From NCBI GenBank assembly GCA_007693595.1, contig REDI01000080.1, positions 1 to 64,000 of the forward strand: DNA of 64,000 nt, given 5' to 3'. Shown one piece after another: positions 44,123 through 53,647 of this stretch (within the stretch, counting starts at the first letter, position 1; each line of letters begins with the position of its first letter). A program made the position numbers and the translations under genes. The notes beneath the pieces are model-generated. The model was not told the origin of the DNA and did not search any database. It was given only the letters and a program-made list of their open reading frames with translations. Origin of the DNA: Deltaproteobacteria bacterium. Its GTDB lineage: Bacteria > Myxococcota_A > UBA796 > GCA-2862545.

Positions 44123-45175
44123 ATGACATTCTTGTCAGTTTTCCAGCGCGTCCGCTGGGCGATAAGCCTGCTGCTCTTGTCGCTCGGTCTGCTCAGCACG
44201 GCGTGCGGCCACAAGAGACTCCCCTCCAATATGGATCCCGCACAGACGCTCGACGTGCAGACCAGCGATGGCTGGACCCTCCAGCTCTTCCACCACGGCG
44301 GCGAAGGGCCGCCGGTGCTGCTCGTCCACGGCATGTCGGCGAACCACTACAACTGGGACTACCGCGCCGAGGTCTCGCCGATCCCTGCCCTGCGCGAGGC
44401 CGGCTACAGCGTGTGGGTGGGCAGCCTCCGGGGCGATAGCGGCACAGAGCCCCCCGACGAGGGCTCGCCGACCGGCATCACCTTCGATCACCACGCCAAG
44501 TATGACGCTCCCGCACTCATCGACGAGGTCCTTGAACGGACGGGTGCGACCGATCTGCTCTGGATTGGGCACAGCATGGGGGGGATGCTTCTCTACACCT
44601 CTGCTCTCGACCATGGCTCCAAGATCCGCGCGGGGATCGCGGTCGCCTCTCCGGCCACCTTCCAGGCGCACCGCAAGAACTACGGCTCTCTTCGGAGCTT
44701 CGGCTTCCTGGTCGCCGCGCGCCGAGGCCGAGTGCCCATGCGCGCCTTCGTCCGCCTCGGGCTGGTCCGAACGCGTCCGGTCATCCGTCAGCTCGGCAAT
44801 CCCGACAACCTCGACCGCGAGGTGATGGCGGGCATGTCCACACAGGCCCTCGAGAACCTCCCGCGCGCGACGGTCCGACAGGCGCGTCAGTGGATGCGCG
44901 CCCGCGACTTGGTCCGCCTCGACGGCACGCCCTGGCTCGACCGTGCCACCCAGTCCGAGGTGCCGCTCCTCGTCATGGGAGCGGTCGACGATCACATCGC
45001 CGCCGAGCAGGACGTCGCGCACGCCTGCCGAATCTTCGCCAACTGCCGATACCTGCGCCTAGGGACCTCGACCGGGTTCGCCGTGGACTACGGTCACATC
45101 GATCCCGTGCTCGGGATCTCGGCCCCCGACGAGATCTATCCGATCATTCTCCGCTTTCTCGAGGAGCACCGCTGA
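44123..45175 (+). CDS. Alpha/beta hydrolase lipoprotein
   Basis: A 350-aa predicted lipoprotein (lipobox LSTAC). The hydrolase fold shows an oxyanion loop LLVHGMSANHYNWD, the nucleophile elbow GHSMGG and a C-terminal DDHIA/VDYGHID region with candidate Asp and His. The pattern is like bacterial lipases of the abhydrolase family. The ATG at 44123 overlaps a TATAAT (44119-44124), so an alternative TTG at 44132 cannot be excluded. The 3' end overlaps the convergent ammonia-lyase paralogue by 32 bp. Confidence 0.82.
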   Translation: MTFLSVFQRVRWAISLLLLSLGLLSTACGHKRLPSNMDPAQTLDVQTSDGWTLQLFHHGGEGPPVLLVHGMSANHYNWDYRAEVSPIPALREAGYSVWVGSLRGDSGTEPPDEGSPTGITFDHHAKYDAPALIDEVLERTGATDLLWIGHSMGGMLLYTSALDHGSKIRAGIAVASPATFQAHRKNYGSLRSFGFLVAARRGRVPMRAFVRLGLVRTRPVIRQLGNPDNLDREVMAGMSTQALENLPRATVRQARQWMRARDLVRLDGTPWLDRATQSEVPLLVMGAVDDHIAAEQDVAHACRIFANCRYLRLGTSTGFAVDYGHIDPVLGISAPDEIYPIILRFLEEHR

Positions 45176-46691
45176 AGGCCTGCCGGCCCGCAAACACGCC
45201 CGCAGACACCGCCTCGCCCAAGGCCACCAGATCGGGGTGGAGCACCCGATCATCTTCCCATCGCGAGACCCGCTCCCGCACCGCCCGCCAGGCGCACAGG
45301 GTGCCTCGACCGGGGATGCTCGGGGTCACCTCGATCATCTCACCCGCGCCATCGACCGCCTCACCCGCGAGGTGGAAGTCGAGGCCCTGGGCCGCGCACA
45401 AGAGCTCGATCGCCAGAACATCGGCGAGACACCGCGCCACCCGCGCCGCCGCGTCCGCCGCGATCGGCCCCATACTCACATGATCCTCTCGATGCTGGAC
45501 GGTCGGGAGCGAGTCGACCGAGGCTGGATGGGAGAGCCCCTTGCACTCGCTGACCAGGGAGGCCGCCGTATACTGAGCCAGCATCAGGCCGCTGTTGATG
45601 CCTGTGCTTCGAAGGAGGAAGGACGGAAGCCCCGAGAGCTGGCCGTAGGTCATGCGGAAGGTGCGCCGCTCCGAGATCGAGGCCACCTGGGTCAGCGCGA
45701 CCTTGAGGTAGTCGAGCGCCAAGGCGACGGGTGCACCATGGAAGTTACCGGCTTCAACCAGCCCCTCCTCGGGCAGCACGAGCGGGTTGTCACACGCCCC
45801 GTTGAGCTCCCGACAGACGACGGCCCAGGCATGATCCATGGCCTCGCGCGCCGCCCCGAGCACCGCGGGTGTGCAGCGGATCGAGAAGGGATCTGGGCGG
45901 CGTCCGCTCACGCACAAGCTCGACCCGCCCAGGAGCGCGCGCATGCGGCGCGCGACCGCCACCGGGCCAGGGTGCCGGCGAGCCGAGAGGGCAGCCTCGG
46001 ACAAGCAGCCGAGGTCTGCCCGGACGACCTCGAACGACATCGCGGCCGCGACCTCGGCCGTGTCGAGCAAGCGCTCTGCCAGCGCCAGGGTCAGCGCCGC
46101 GCTCGCCGTGGTCAGGGTGGCGCCGTTGATGAGCGAGAGCGCCTCCTTGGGGTTGAGGTGCGCGACCGGAAGGCCCTGGAGGGCCCGATCTGCGTCGAGG
46201 AGCTGCCCATCACGCCACGCGCGACCTCCGAAGCCGCAGCAGACCCACATCAGGTGCGCGAGCTGCGGGCACCCCGCCGCCCCGACGCTCCCTTGGCGAG
46301 GCACATAGGGCACCAGACCGCCCTCCAGCTGCGCGAGGAGGGTGTCGACGATGTGGGGGCGTACCCCAGAATAGCCAGTGGCGAGCACGTTGATCCGACA
46401 TGCGAGTAAGGCCCGAACCTCAGAGGGCTCCAGCGGATCGCCGACACCAGCACAGTGGCCTCGGAGAAAGGCGCGCACCTGATCCTCGGGGGCCGAGGGC
46501 GCCTCGTGATCCGACAGCCAAGCCCACTTCGAGGCGAGCACGTCGGCGACCGGCCGCGCCTGAAGCTGTTCGGCGCTCCGAGCCATGCGAGCTCGCGCCT
46601 CGGGAGCGAGCGTCACCGGAGCCCCGGCCGCGATGGTCGCGACCTCTCGTGGACCGAGACGCTGTCCGTCGAGCACGATCGGGGTCTGCAT
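45144..46691 (-). CDS. Ammonia-lyase paralogue lacking MIO-forming and catalytic residues (pseudoenzyme)
   Basis: A 515-aa protein of the histidine/phenylalanine ammonia-lyase fold. The MIO triad, Ala/Ser-Ser-Gly in active enzymes, is Ala138-Ala139-Gly140 (GSVGAAGCPQLAHL), so no serine can cyclise into the electrophilic prosthetic group. The catalytic Y-G-V-N-T-G loop is absent from the N-terminus, and the second tyrosine is Phe (PDPFSIRC, against QDAYSIRC in the neighbour). Structural residues including NFHGAP and the REDHVSM loop are kept. It overlaps the stop of the active copy as TGATG, so the two are co-translated. A role as a regulatory or scaffold subunit in mixed tetramers is inference. 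Confidence 0.85.
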   Translation of the reverse strand: MQTPIVLDGQRLGPREVATIAAGAPVTLAPEARARMARSAEQLQARPVADVLASKWAWLSDHEAPSAPEDQVRAFLRGHCAGVGDPLEPSEVRALLACRINVLATGYSGVRPHIVDTLLAQLEGGLVPYVPRQGSVGAAGCPQLAHLMWVCCGFGGRAWRDGQLLDADRALQGLPVAHLNPKEALSLINGATLTTASAALTLALAERLLDTAEVAAAMSFEVVRADLGCLSEAALSARRHPGPVAVARRMRALLGGSSLCVSGRRPDPFSIRCTPAVLGAAREAMDHAWAVVCRELNGACDNPLVLPEEGLVEAGNFHGAPVALALDYLKVALTQVASISERRTFRMTYGQLSGLPSFLLRSTGINSGLMLAQYTAASLVSECKGLSHPASVDSLPTVQHREDHVSMGPIAADAAARVARCLADVLAIELLCAAQGLDFHLAGEAVDGAGEMIEVTPSIPGRGTLCAWRAVRERVSRWEDDRVLHPDLVALGEAVSAGVFAGRQAFSGAPRESGE

Positions 46692-48292
46692 CAGAGCACC
46701 TCCGGCAGCGGCCCGAGCTCAGACTCGACCGCGTCGACGATGCGTCCCTCCGCCACCGCCTGAGCCAAGGCGGCGATCTCATCGCCAGGTAGCTCCCCAG
46801 CCTCGCTGAGCACGAGGGAGATCTCGCGAAGCGCTGTTTGGGTGCCCTGCCCGAAGGTGAGGCTGGGGTCCTCGGCCCGACGATGGGCCAGCGCGCTCGC
46901 GGCGGTGAGCAGCTCGATGGCGACGACCTGCTGGGAATGGGTCACGATGCGGCGCGCGCGCCGTGCCGCAGTGGTGGACATGGCGACCACGTCCTCCTGG
47001 TCCTCGCAGGTGGGGATACTGTCGGCGCTGGCAGGCCAGCAGAGCGCCCGGTTCGCCGCGACCAGGGAGGCGGCTGTGGTCTGCGGGACCATCAAGCCGA
47101 GGCCCGGTCGATCCCGGTGGACGAGCAGCGGAGGCAGGCGAGAGGAGAGCGATCCGGTCGTCAAGCGGTAGATCCGACGCTCGCTGAGCGCGGCGAGCTC
47201 CGAGACCGCCAGCTTGAGATGATCGGCGGCCATCCCGACAGGTTCACCATGGAACATCCCCGCAGAAAAAGCCTTGTTGTCGCCCTCCCCGTCGAGGAGG
47301 ATCAAGGGGTTGTCGGTGGCGGCATTGAGCTCGACCGCAATCTGCTCGGCGGCGAAGCGCACCCCGTCACGCACGGCCCCCAAAATCTGAGGCGTACAGC
47401 GAATGCTGTAGGCGTCCTGGACCTTCTCGGCCATCGAGTCGATCAGTGTGCTACCCGACAGCAAGGCCCGGAGCGCTCCGGCGCTCGCGATCGCTCCAGG
47501 ATAAGGACGCATCGCGTGGACCGAGGGGTGGAGCGCGCGGGTGACGCCACGCACCGCCTCCCAGGACATCGCCGCCGCGACCTCGGCCGCGTGGACCAAC
47601 CGAGCCGCGTCGACGCAGGCGAGCCCGGCGAGTGCGGTGGTTAGCTGCGCCCCATTGGTGATGGCGAGCCCTTCCTTGGGGCCAGGCACCAGCCGCGCGA
47701 TGCCCGCCCGCCGCATCGCCTCGGCCCCAGCGAGGAGCGTGCCCTGAAACCAGGCCTGACCCGAGGGCTCATCTTGGCCATCGGGTCCGCGGAAGAGCAC
47801 CAGCCCCAGGTGGGAGAGCGGCGCCAGATCCCCCGAGGAGCCACAAGAACCCTGAGACGGAACGACCGGCACAACCCCCCGCCGCAACATGGCGAGCAAG
47901 GTGTGGACGAGCGCGGGCCGGCACCCCGAGACACCCTTGGCCAGCGCGTTCGCCCGAAGGACCATCATGGCCCGCACGACCTCGGGCGCGCAGGGAGGGC
48001 CCACCCCCGCGGCGTGAGAGCGGACCAGGTTCCAGGAGAGCGCCCGGATCTGATCGCCGTCGATCCGCATCCGGGCAAGGGAGCCGTAGCCCGTATTGAC
48101 TCCATAAACGGCGAGAGGGTCGCCCGCTGCGTCGCGCAGAGTGCCCGCTGCCGCGTCGCGAACCCACCGCAGGCTGGCCGCCATGCGCCGCTCGGCCTCG
48201 GGGCAGAGCGTGGCCTCGACCCCGTCACGCGCGACGGCGATGAGGCCAGCAAAGCCCAAGCTCCCGCCGTCGATCACGACCGCATCGGTCAT
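46691..48292 (-). CDS. hutH: Histidine ammonia-lyase-like enzyme
   Basis: A 533-aa enzyme of the MIO family with an intact active site: Tyr63 in VYGVNTGYG, MIO triad Ser152-Ser153-Gly154 (GSCGSSGDLAPLSHL), YSIRC and the QED loop. The SH pair at 92-93 (LVRSHAAGVG) is the histidine-type selectivity motif, whereas tyrosine or phenylalanine lyases carry HL or FL there. It should convert L-histidine to urocanate and ammonia. No hutU or hutI is adjacent. Start: the ATG at 48292 overlaps the upstream stop in an ATGA. The following gene is a catalytically dead paralogue. Confidence 0.87.
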   Translation of the reverse strand: MTDAVVIDGGSLGFAGLIAVARDGVEATLCPEAERRMAASLRWVRDAAAGTLRDAAGDPLAVYGVNTGYGSLARMRIDGDQIRALSWNLVRSHAAGVGPPCAPEVVRAMMVLRANALAKGVSGCRPALVHTLLAMLRRGVVPVVPSQGSCGSSGDLAPLSHLGLVLFRGPDGQDEPSGQAWFQGTLLAGAEAMRRAGIARLVPGPKEGLAITNGAQLTTALAGLACVDAARLVHAAEVAAAMSWEAVRGVTRALHPSVHAMRPYPGAIASAGALRALLSGSTLIDSMAEKVQDAYSIRCTPQILGAVRDGVRFAAEQIAVELNAATDNPLILLDGEGDNKAFSAGMFHGEPVGMAADHLKLAVSELAALSERRIYRLTTGSLSSRLPPLLVHRDRPGLGLMVPQTTAASLVAANRALCWPASADSIPTCEDQEDVVAMSTTAARRARRIVTHSQQVVAIELLTAASALAHRRAEDPSLTFGQGTQTALREISLVLSEAGELPGDEIAALAQAVAEGRIVDAVESELGPLPEVL

Positions 48293-49050
48293 GGGCCGCC
48301 ACACGATAGCGAAGGCTGCTCCTCGAAACTCCGCAGGACGGCCTCGCCCTCGAGACCCACCACCGACACCACAGCTCGAAAGGAAGCTCCACCGCCATCG
48401 CCCGCGATCACGAGATCCGGGTGACCGTCCCCGTCGAGATCGGCCCGGGCGATGACCGTGATCTCGACAGGAGCCGAAGAGCCACGTCGGAGAACCAGCC
48501 CCGACGCGAGGTTCGAGGCGTCACTGCTCGCGATGGCGACCCCGACCTGGTCTCCTCGCTCCCCCACGATCGCCTGCCAAGGCGGCCCGTTCCAGCGCAG
48601 CTTGGTGACGGCGCGCACCCGGATCCCCTGGTGGAGAGTCGGATCCTTCTGCGCACCGCCAGGCACGACCCCCTCGGGAGGACCAAGGATCTCGGCCAGC
48701 CGCCAGCCGGCACGCTCAACGACCGAGGCCGCAACCATGGGGGGCGGCGCGTAGGCCTCGGGCTCGGCCCCTGGGACAAAGAGCACTCCCGGCCCCTCAA
48801 AGGCCACGGCGCCACCGCAAGGCTCCGCGGGCTGGGCGGCCACCATGCCCTCGCGCCGCATCAACCCACCCTCGCCTTCGACCCCAGGCACCACGGCGCG
48901 ACCGTCCACGTTCCACGCCGCGGACCACGCCAGCGGCGCGAGATCCTCAGCAGACATGGGAGCAAAGTGATCTTCCGGCAGCTCTGCTGGCGTCTCCGCC
49001 GTGCCCCCCAGGGTGCACCCGATCAGAATCATTGGCGATAGTGCACGCAT
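48289..49050 (-). CDS. Lipoprotein with a single FG-GAP-like calcium loop
   Basis: A 253-aa predicted lipoprotein (signal ending LIGC). The C-terminal region has one FG-GAP-like loop (RADLDGDGHPDLVIAGD). The rest was not recognised. GAGAG precedes the ATG at 49050. The stop overlaps hutH by ATGA, so it is the first gene of a three-gene operon with the two ammonia-lyase homologues. The link between an exported protein and cytoplasmic lyases is unclear. Confidence 0.68.
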   Translation of the reverse strand: MRALSPMILIGCTLGGTAETPAELPEDHFAPMSAEDLAPLAWSAAWNVDGRAVVPGVEGEGGLMRREGMVAAQPAEPCGGAVAFEGPGVLFVPGAEPEAYAPPPMVAASVVERAGWRLAEILGPPEGVVPGGAQKDPTLHQGIRVRAVTKLRWNGPPWQAIVGERGDQVGVAIASSDASNLASGLVLRRGSSAPVEITVIARADLDGDGHPDLVIAGDGGGASFRAVVSVVGLEGEAVLRSFEEQPSLSCGGP

Positions 49051-49111
49051 AGCTCTCTCTCGATACGAACCCACAAGACAGATCCAGACCAGGGGGGTAG
49101 CCAGGATCACG

Positions 49112-49934: not shown

Positions 49935-51215
49935 TCAGAACTGCCGACCGCAGACGTTGGTCTGGTTCTCTTCGAGACGGTCCTGGTGCACGTCACGGGT
50001 CACCCAGCGGTCGCGCTTGATGCGGTCGATCACGAACTCGCCCTGCACGAAGACGTGCGACTGGCTGTTCGCCCCGTAGTAGCGGAGACCGAAGTTACCC
50101 GTAAGGTTGTTCCCCACATCGATCTCGGAGCGATCCTGATCGAAGCGGACCCAGTTGTAGTGCATCTCACCCCAACCAGCGAAGCCCGCGGGGCGACCAT
50201 CGGTCTCGCGCCAGGCATTGCTGGGCACGATGGGGCGATGCTCGTCGGCGCCGTTGGGGTACAGGGCCTCGAGCTCCATCTGGGTCTGCGCTTGGGTGCG
50301 CTCCACGGTCCGCATCATGTTGATGAAGGGGGTCGCGCTACGCACGGAGTCCTCGAAGCCTTCGCCACCGTAGATCGCTGGATCGAGCGGGGTATAGAAG
50401 ATCGAGTTGAGCGGTGGACCACGCTCGTTCTCGTCGAAGTTGGTATAGGCCGAGGGCTGACCATAGCGGCTGGCGGTCATGAAGAGCTCTTCGGGGCCCC
50501 AGCGCGCCCGCGTATATCCGGCGCGCATCTTGGGAGGAAGGCTCCAGATTCGGGTAGGGTCGTCGGGGTTGAACTGATAGGACATCGAGTTCAGGAAGAA
50601 GAGCGTCCCGTCACCGCCCTCATACCCGTCGGGCCACACGACATCGCCGCCTTCGTAGTTGGGCTCGTTGATCGCCCGGCTCCAGTTGGTGACCCAATCG
50701 CCATCGATAGGCTCAAAGGCGACATCGCCGCCCCGATCGACGCAGCGCTCCGGCGCAAAGTCCGGCCGAATGGAGAAGGCAAAGCGGAAGTTACCGCCGG
50801 GGAGGCGATGGTGGAAGGTGACGTTGAGGTCGCCCTCGCTCGTCATGACCGCCTCGCCCCGCCAGGGCTCCAGCTCCTCGCGAACGACGATGAAGGCATC
50901 GCGATCCGCCCAAGTCTCGTGAACGACGCCGCGGGCGCCCATCTCGTCGAGGACCTGCACCCCGTTCGCCGGGCGGCAGTTATCGATACGACCGTCTTCG
51001 AAGCGGGAGTCTTCATTGGCGAGATCACGACAGTCGAAGCTCCACCACTCCTGGGTATCTTCGTAGCGGATGGATCCGTCGACGAAGACCGGGGAGGTGT
51101 TGAGCGACAAGAAGGCGGTGTAGGACCCACCAGTGAGCTCCGCGTTCTGCGGGGCGCAGCCTGATGCGGCTATAAGCGCGCCAATCAAGATACCAGCTTT
51201 CGAGAGTCGGGACAT
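49935..51215 (-). CDS. Lipoprotein of unknown function
   Basis: A 426-aa predicted lipoprotein (MSRLSKAGILIGALIAASGCAPQ). The mature part is rich in aromatic residues and Asn/Gly/Asp with a beta-strand-like pattern (e.g. GDLNVTFHHRLPGGNFRFAFSI), and has three Cys pairs. No family recognised; a carbohydrate-binding or jelly-roll fold is possible but unsupported. The ATG at 51215 has GGAG 8 nt upstream. Confidence 0.68.
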   Translation of the reverse strand: MSRLSKAGILIGALIAASGCAPQNAELTGGSYTAFLSLNTSPVFVDGSIRYEDTQEWWSFDCRDLANEDSRFEDGRIDNCRPANGVQVLDEMGARGVVHETWADRDAFIVVREELEPWRGEAVMTSEGDLNVTFHHRLPGGNFRFAFSIRPDFAPERCVDRGGDVAFEPIDGDWVTNWSRAINEPNYEGGDVVWPDGYEGGDGTLFFLNSMSYQFNPDDPTRIWSLPPKMRAGYTRARWGPEELFMTASRYGQPSAYTNFDENERGPPLNSIFYTPLDPAIYGGEGFEDSVRSATPFINMMRTVERTQAQTQMELEALYPNGADEHRPIVPSNAWRETDGRPAGFAGWGEMHYNWVRFDQDRSEIDVGNNLTGNFGLRYYGANSQSHVFVQGEFVIDRIKRDRWVTRDVHQDRLEENQTNVCGRQF

Positions 51216-51436
51216 TTTTTGCGCTCCACAGAGGGCGACCAGGCGATCGGGCCCTCCCTTATAGGCGGTCGACGGGGGGGTGGTCAACCCCAGACCCGAG
51301 GGTCCGCAGTCAGGGAAGGGTGAACGGTAGCTTCAGACACCTCAAGCCGCAGAGAGGCCGAGCCGCTGCCCCTGGGAAGTGGACCCCGTCAGGCCCGTGT
51401 TCACCCCGAGAGCCTCTGGGACTCTTCGGGGCGGCC

Positions 51437-53563
51437 TCAGTCCGCGAGGGGGGGGCCGCGGAGCGCACCGTGATCCCGGAACCACAGCTCGCCCCCGATC
51501 GCCACGGGGGGACCGCTCACGCTCGCCGGGACGTGCACCGATCCGATCACGCCGACCTGGCCATCGACCAGGCGGGCCGCGCCCACGAAGCCGCGCCCCC
51601 ATCTCCAGAGCAGATCCACCTCGCCATCGCCCGCGACGGCTCCAAGAGAGAGATCGGCGCCGCCACCAGGCAAGGCGAGCAAGGCCTCGCCGTCGAGGTC
51701 GCGAACCAACACCTCATCGCCTAGCGCCTCGGCGACCACGACCGCTCCACCGGAAGACCACAGTCGACACCGCCCTTGGCAGCGCTCCACCTCGTCGTCG
51801 TACAAGGCGATGCCCAGCGCCCCCGCGGCCTCCTCGGTCGTCAAGACGTCGAGCGCGTCGTCGAGCACCGAGATCCCGGCGTCGTCCAGCACCGCGCCGC
51901 GTTCCGCTCGGCAGGCCACCGCCAAGGGTGAGTGCACCTCGCGCCGACCGAGCACGTCATCGCCCAAACGGGCCAGGACCAGCTCGTCCTCGAAGAGCAC
52001 CCAGACCCGATCCCCGCAGACCGCTGCATCGAGGATCTCTTGCTCCACGGTTCCCACCGAGACCAACTCCGAGACCACCGGACCGAGCGCGTCGACCTCG
52101 ATCCAGCCTGCGCGCAGCGCGGTACCGGCCTCGACAAAGGTGAGGCCTCGGCCATCATCCGCGGTATACATCGCGCCTGCGATCGAGAGAGGGAAGGCCT
52201 CGCCCTCGGGCAGCGGCAGGGTCCAGCCGCCCTCATCGCCGTCGACCCAGGCTCCGGGGTACCAAGCCCACGCCTCTTCCCCGACCAGCAGATCCATCGA
52301 GGCTTCCTCGCCGCCCGCCCCGGCGCCGAAGGGGCCAAAGCCGAAGGTCTCGCCCGCCTCAGCGTTTCGGTAGACTCCATCGTCAAAGCGAAGGTATCGA
52401 AGAAAGTTTCGCTCCTCGTCGAGGGTCATGATCGAGCGCAGCCCGTCATGGAAGAGATCGGCGAAGGCGAGGTGAGCCCCCGGCGCGCCCGTCCGAAGGA
52501 AGGAGGGGTTGTCGCCATCGAGGGACCAGATCTGGATGTCACGCTCCTCGACAGGGACTCGAGGCTGCGCAAAGAGAAGGTTGTCGGCGCCACTCTCGTT
52601 ATAGTCCCCCACCGAGCGGATGCTCGAGCCCGGCTGCGCGTCGAGAGGAATGGGAGGACCCGTGAGGATCCAGCCCCCTCGGCTGTCGCGGGTCAGCCGC
52701 ATCCAGGTGCCCTCGTCGGTGAGTGCCGTGATGACCGGCGGCCCCTCTCCTCGGTCGGAGGCGATGGTGAGATCGTAGGCCACGCCGGGCATCCTTCGCT
52801 CGTAGAGCGGCTCGAACCCCCAGGCGCCATCGCCGGCCCAGATCTGGACCCTCGGCCCGGCGGGGGTGGACCACGCGACGACGAGATCACGCAGGCCATC
52901 GTCGTCGACATCGGCCAGGTCCGCGCCACGCACGGTCCAGCCAGGCTCCTCGAGGCCGAAGCCGAAGCTCGCACCTCCCTCGGTCCGACCGCGGAGCAAC
53001 ACGACCCGCCCACCAGACCAAGCCAAGGCGTCGACCACGCCATCGTCATCGATCGTCACGGCGCGGAGGCCCTCGACCTCGTCCTCGAAGCGAGCGACGG
53101 GGTGCGCGGGGAGCTCGTGACCCGTCCACCAGACCTCGAAGCCGGCGCCGACCAGGACCCCACCGCTGGCAGACTCGACGAAGCGAGCCTCAGGTACACC
53201 CAGGTGCGCCGGGGGCCAAGCGGACGTCCAAGGAGAAGACCCAAGGACCGCGGCCGGCTGGCCGATCCCTCCGAGCGTCACGGCGGCGGGTCCGTCGAAG
53301 TCGAGGAGCGCGTAGCCCCGGCCATCGACCTCAACCTCGACCGGGGCGCCGTCGAGGGTCGCGTTCACGGTCGCCGGACCCGAGGAGAGGCCGTCGATGT
53401 CGACCGACCGAAGGAGGAGCTGGTCAGGCACCGCCGCGGTCGGCCCATAAATCGCCACGGTAGTAGGCTCTACGGTGATCGGAGAGGCTCCCGAGACCCC
53501 CCCGACGATCGCGTCGGGTTGACAGGCGAGAGCGACGAGACAGACGATGGGCCAGGCGCGCAT
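51437..53563 (-). CDS. Large FG-GAP/beta-propeller lipoprotein
   Basis: A 708-aa predicted lipoprotein (lipobox LVALAC). FG-GAP-like loops include TIDDDGVVDALAW, DVDDDGLRDLVVAW, DLFHDGLRSIMTL and VAGDGEVDLLWRW, indicating a propeller. An N-terminal Ig-like stretch (PTTVAIYGPTAAVPDQ) precedes it. Function unknown; similar to surface propeller proteins elsewhere in this window. GGAGG precedes the ATG at 53563; divergent from the Fur-family gene. Confidence 0.78.
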   Translation of the reverse strand: MRAWPIVCLVALACQPDAIVGGVSGASPITVEPTTVAIYGPTAAVPDQLLLRSVDIDGLSSGPATVNATLDGAPVEVEVDGRGYALLDFDGPAAVTLGGIGQPAAVLGSSPWTSAWPPAHLGVPEARFVESASGGVLVGAGFEVWWTGHELPAHPVARFEDEVEGLRAVTIDDDGVVDALAWSGGRVVLLRGRTEGGASFGFGLEEPGWTVRGADLADVDDDGLRDLVVAWSTPAGPRVQIWAGDGAWGFEPLYERRMPGVAYDLTIASDRGEGPPVITALTDEGTWMRLTRDSRGGWILTGPPIPLDAQPGSSIRSVGDYNESGADNLLFAQPRVPVEERDIQIWSLDGDNPSFLRTGAPGAHLAFADLFHDGLRSIMTLDEERNFLRYLRFDDGVYRNAEAGETFGFGPFGAGAGGEEASMDLLVGEEAWAWYPGAWVDGDEGGWTLPLPEGEAFPLSIAGAMYTADDGRGLTFVEAGTALRAGWIEVDALGPVVSELVSVGTVEQEILDAAVCGDRVWVLFEDELVLARLGDDVLGRREVHSPLAVACRAERGAVLDDAGISVLDDALDVLTTEEAAGALGIALYDDEVERCQGRCRLWSSGGAVVVAEALGDEVLVRDLDGEALLALPGGGADLSLGAVAGDGEVDLLWRWGRGFVGAARLVDGQVGVIGSVHVPASVSGPPVAIGGELWFRDHGALRGPPLAD

Positions 53564-53647
53564 GGATCCTCCACGAGGAGTATACGCGAGGACCACGTCA
53601 TCCGAGGAGGTCGTGCACAGAACCCGAGACTCCGATATCTTCTCGTC

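Follow-up and report, generated by a model that had tools for sequence, protein, structure and literature searches.

Two overlapping genes of the window, that is, of the whole 64,000-nucleotide stretch of Deltaproteobacteria DNA that was analysed, encode paralogous lyases, A and P, which we consider fairly likely to make up a single histidine ammonia-lyase (HAL) as its two subunits. The enzyme would be a mixed tetramer in which P is non-catalytic and probably completes the active sites of A. The strict retention of A together with P in about 48 genomes suggests that the working enzyme is such a mixed complex, and a complex between the two proteins is likely to exist.

Gene pair, protein family and fold

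The positions of both genes and of their diagnostic residues are given in Table 1. The earlier note on this DNA had described A and P as start-stop coupled, and this agrees with the single-nucleotide TGATG overlap and with the open reading frames at the tabulated positions; the motif would couple the translation of P to that of A. In the complete adjacent pairs examined across relatives, A comes first and the overlap amounts to 1–10 nt. For the sole listed pair with a gap (L063), an alternative ATGA start is available at the overlap.

Table 1. Features of the A/P gene pair in the window. Residue numbers in brackets are those of Pseudomonas putida HAL.
Feature	Position	Strand	Basis
Gene A, HAL-like MIO ammonia-lyase, 533 aa	46691..48292	minus	ORF, PF00221, residue alignment
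Gene P, pseudo-ammonia-lyase, 515 aa	45144..46691	minus	ORF, PF00221, residue alignment
TGATG, stop of A and start of P, 1 nt overlap	46689..46693	minus	sequence
Inner-loop catalytic Tyr63 of A (Tyr53)	48104..48106	minus	alignment
MIO-forming tripeptide of A, Ser152-Ser153-Gly154 (142–144)	47831..47839	minus	alignment
Tyr295 of A (Tyr280)	47408..47410	minus	alignment
Met346-Phe347 of A (Asn328-Phe329)	47252..47257	minus	alignment
Tripeptide of P at the MIO site, Ala138-Ala139-Gly140	46272..46280	minus	alignment
Phe269 of P (Tyr280), the same residue in all P proteins	45885..45887	minus	alignment
Asn316-Phe317 of P (Asn328-Phe329), canonical pair retained	45741..45746	minus	alignment

Both proteins belong to PF00221 (Lyase_aromatic), with scores of 525 bits for A and 417.8 bits for P at a cut-off of 27.3, and neither reaches the 539 bits of the HutH equivalog TIGR01225 (A 492, P 408). 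The domain search revealed no domain in P beyond PF00221. The single-chain AlphaFold models, which speak to the fold and not to assembly, have a pTM of 0.91 for each protein; the structures nearest to the model of P are HALs (TM 0.83–0.87), and the model of A likewise matches HAL crystal structures. P thus keeps the lyase fold, as had been proposed for it.

Directly upstream of A, on the minus strand, there are genes for putative secreted proteins (48289-49110, 49935-51287 and 51437-53596), two of them with weak FG-GAP matches. The nearest one overlaps A by 4 nt (ATGA), and related genes stand ahead of A in 13–18 relatives. As conserved neighbours that might hint at the function of A and P, some families have secreted FG-GAP lipoproteins upstream; there were no others.

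Catalytic residues of P and A

Residues are numbered hereafter according to P. putida HAL. In the alignment, P carries Ala142-Ala143-Gly144, has its Tyr53 inner loop deleted and shows Pro277 and Phe280, so that all the losses described in the earlier note (the MIO serine, replaced in an AAG tripeptide, the tyrosine loop and the second tyrosine, replaced by Phe) are visible there. The P protein of the window retains His83, Asn195, Arg283, Phe329 and Glu414. Across 76 P rows, 46 after the removal of near-duplicates, Ala143, Gly144, His83, Asn195, Phe280, Arg283 and Glu414 are invariant; the question of whether relatives share the AAG form is therefore answered in the affirmative, Ala143 being present in all 46 non-redundant sequences. 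An apparent ASG motif in one P (L144/L240) was rejected, as the alignment reads AAG. In one genome (G054, locus L067) the sequences of A and P diverge unusually far, and even Phe329 of P is replaced there, by His. Lyase_aromatic proteins with a natural Ala-Cys-Gly replacing the Ala-Ser-Gly MIO motif were observed in other genomes of the order (L075, L078 and L080).

It is established that no MIO is formed without the serine (Langer and Retey). MIO enzymes with a mutated inner-loop tyrosine are reported to be inactive (PMC9002059), and the same is true of the Y52F, H82L, N194D and E411D mutants of the Geobacillus HAL (PMC11432326). Since P lacks both the MIO serine and the inner-loop tyrosine, and the loss of either inactivates the enzymes studied, P is almost certainly dead as a lyase. 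Its residue losses and its common origin with A make it a catalytically dead paralogue, the deadness being deduced from the published mutants.

Protein A has Tyr53, His83, Ser142-Ser143-Gly144, Asn195, Gln277, Tyr280, Arg283, Phe329 and Glu414 in the alignment, i.e., all known catalytic residues. The Ser-Ser-Gly tripeptide, with Cys140 ahead of it, occurs in every one of the 62 A rows that can be read at the MIO site. A also retains Ser82-His83, the Ser-His dyad of HALs, which has been described as their substrate switch (PMC11432326).

The positions invariant in HALs were set by 44 canonical HALs and the P. putida enzyme, and 92 such positions were compared. Asn328, Phe370, Gly376, Ser379, Ala384, Ser418, Gln447 and Arg469 are replaced in A and retained in P: Asn328 by Leu or Met in all A proteins, Gly376 mostly by Arg, Ser379 by Leu, Ala384 by Pro and Ser418 by Ala. 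A further replacement in A is that of Ala142 by Ser. Conversely, Tyr53, Thr57, Gly58, Gly60, Ser82, Ser143, Gly190, Gln277 and Tyr280 are lost by P and retained by A. At positions 410–412 each protein shows novel residues specific to its clade: Cys-Glu-Asp in A, and in P mostly Val followed by an invariant Gln-His. The loss sets of A and P showed no mutual avoidance (three shared among the 92 invariant positions, Fisher p 0.69). The losses unique to A lie mostly after position 300 and those unique to P mostly before position 290, with p 0.001 by residue and p 0.03–0.04 by event, when neighbouring positions are pooled, in a test devised post hoc.

Owing to the replaced HAL-invariant residues, A does not qualify as a complete HAL of the ordinary kind. 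Its description as the intact copy in the earlier note holds for the known catalytic residues but not for the C-terminal half, where HAL-invariant residues have changed. As A differs from HALs at residues that P retains, the picture of an intact copy plus a tuner may understate the interdependence of the two proteins.

Distribution, selection and origin

P was found in 48 of the 63 genomes of the order that were searched (one P is cut by a contig end) and A in 49; 14 genomes have neither. Wherever P occurs in the 63, A occurs too, and in the only genome in which A lacks P (G293) the gene stops at a contig edge. In a phylum-wide search, relatives of P with 45–60% identity were confined to the same order. 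The contig scan placed the P clade in records of uncultured Deltaproteobacteria or Myxococcota and in metagenome-assembled genomes labelled otherwise; it showed no P outside this clade, all other matches being canonical HALs with the MIO serine and no tandem partner. Four of the metagenome-assembled records (L129, L132, L134 and L138), titled Klebsiella pneumoniae or Bifidobacterium breve, group with uncultured Myxococcota, and their titles look wrong.

The two genes are not always adjacent. One genus, represented by five genomes, has the two genes on separate contigs yet retains both, and in G290, which belongs to the window's own genus, a kinase gene separates A from P, yet P is kept. The separating gene (L233:2392-4824), on the opposite strand, encodes 810 aa and reads as a PAS/histidine kinase/response regulator. 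The retention of P after unlinking argues for a function of P, either alone or with A in trans.

Purifying selection acts on P: among close relatives, the Nei-Gojobori dN/dS is 0.07–0.28 for P and 0.06–0.24 for A, and it is 0.08–0.13 in the genus with unlinked genes. In the phylogenetic tree with outgroups, A and P each form one clade, and the two are sisters (support 97), which points to one duplication of a HAL. The pairwise distances of A and P remained correlated once those of EF-G had been partialled out (partial r 0.76; 0 of 5000 Mantel permutations), and gene linkage could partly explain this rate correlation as well as the co-occurrence of the two genes.

Histidine degradation

A and P are the only Lyase_aromatic (PF00221) genes of the genome. 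Urocanase (hutU; 929.8 bits to TIGR01228) is located on contig C1 and imidazolonepropionase (hutI) on contig C82, the window being on C89; the pathway of histidine degradation is thus present but scattered. The earlier note was right that no other hut gene lies nearby, but its doubt about a degradation role on that ground is not supported, because the genome has hutU and hutI elsewhere, as do all 13 others in which the two genes were sought. A wider search detected urocanase in 23 of 26 genomes. In G049, a genome of the same family without A and P, an ordinary hutH with the ASG motif adjoins hutU and hutI. Two further genomes of this family (G039 and G044) have urocanase (L098 in G039), and no Lyase_aromatic gene was found in them.

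Given the presence of hutU and hutI and the lack of any further Lyase_aromatic gene, the A/P pair is most likely the HAL of the pathway, and there is a good probability that it serves histidine degradation. The Ser82-His83 motif and the pathway context suggest that histidine would be the substrate of A.

Proposed two-subunit enzyme

In the P. putida HAL structure, the MIO, Tyr280/Arg283 and Phe329 probably come from three different chains; the open-access literature searched describes sites built from three chains, and no statement of which chain supplies which HAL residue was found in it. MIO enzymes are homotetramers, each of whose four sites is built from three interlocking chains (PMC9002059). 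We propose that an ordinary HAL was duplicated once, giving A, which would have retained the MIO and the catalytic residues and would do the chemistry, and P, which would make no MIO. The presumably co-translated proteins would assemble as a mixed tetramer, probably A2P2; the earlier note had already thought of mixed tetramers, and we regard this reading as the best one. Because each MIO site is built from three chains, P most likely supplies elements of the C-terminal half that are changed in A, around Asn328-Phe329 and perhaps 370–386, and A would supply the MIO core, the Tyr53 loop and Tyr280/Arg283. Composite active sites with exactly these contributions are a tentative proposal. The pocket of P itself (His83, Asn195, Arg283 and Glu414) may still bind a ligand, histidine or urocanate, and determine the activity. 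Somewhat doubtful is the stricter form of the model, in which the paralogues have lost different parts of the site, neither works alone, and histidine is degraded only by the heterotetramer, an obligate two-component MIO enzyme with two functional and two non-functional sites; A, having every known catalytic residue, might work by itself.

If A were a complete HAL, P could be a regulatory subunit, or prozyme, that binds A and raises or lowers its activity or makes it ligand-dependent, through an unreactive pocket with a remaining affinity for histidine or urocanate. The full set of known catalytic residues in A speaks for this explanation, and the complete (100%) conservation of His83, Asn195, Arg283 and Glu414 in P, despite the lack of MIO, leaves room for ligand binding. 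There is also a precedent in the deoxyhypusine synthase of trypanosomes, a heterotetramer whose activity is raised 3000-fold by its dead paralogue (PMC3663545). However, the eight HAL-invariant residues between Asn328 and Arg469 that are replaced in A do not fit an ordinary complete HAL, and we consider a purely regulatory P rather unlikely. It is improbable that P acts as an independent homotetramer, sensing or buffering histidine or urocanate or catalysing a non-MIO reaction, with the overlap serving shared expression only. P does retain the fold and much of the substrate pocket and persists where it is unlinked from A, but it never occurs without A in the 63 genomes, the rates of the two proteins are correlated, and P has gained no domain.

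A similarly low probability is given to the view that the substrate of A and P is not histidine. The 370–386 segment, in which A departs from HALs, presumably lines the substrate pocket, to judge by alignment with work on phenylalanine ammonia-lyase (PAL), and its alteration could mark a new specificity; the score of A below the hutH equivalog cut-off and the distance of the pair from hutU and hutI are in line with this. Nevertheless, A keeps the Ser-His substrate-switch dyad, the genomes with the pair have hutU and hutI and no other Lyase_aromatic gene, and a genome of the same family lacking the pair has an ordinary hutH beside these two genes. As for a decaying, functionless duplicate, which the missing catalytic residues of P might suggest, there is practically no chance of it: a P confined to this genome and in decay, which the earlier note named as refuting its reading, is excluded by the occurrence of P in about 48 genomes spread across several families, its single origin and purifying selection. 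A pseudogene or sequencing artefact was rejected on the grounds of conservation and selection.

Comparison with known systems and significance

A resembles HutH (P. putida 1b8f/1gkm, Trypanosoma cruzi 6v6h; TIGR01225) in its family, fold, catalytic residues and Ser-His dyad, and P in its fold and part of the substrate pocket, the other hut genes being present in the genome. Known HALs, however, are homotetramers of one MIO-bearing chain, whereas here there are two paralogous genes, P being without the MIO serine, the inner-loop tyrosine and Tyr280, and A being changed at Asn328, 370–386 and 410–418. Plant PAL heterotetramers mix active isoforms and so are mixed MIO-lyase tetramers, as proposed for A and P, but in the present case the P chain cannot form MIO. 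With the trypanosomatid prozymes (deoxyhypusine synthase and AdoMetDC) the pair shares a changed or impaired catalytic paralogue that is kept together with a dead one. Those enzymes are of an unrelated family, while A and P are bacterial, their genes overlap as an operon, their complex is a proposed one, and the dead partner P retains HAL-invariant residues that the catalytic A has lost. The open-access literature searched contained no MIO pseudo-lyase partner, so that one has probably, though not certainly, never been published.

Genes resembling P may encode inactive proteins even where they carry the annotation histidine ammonia-lyase. As a bacterial parallel to the prozymes, the A/P pair lets the share of each chain in a MIO site be tested, and it represents a natural experiment on the splitting of a multi-chain active site between paralogues, preserved across a bacterial order.
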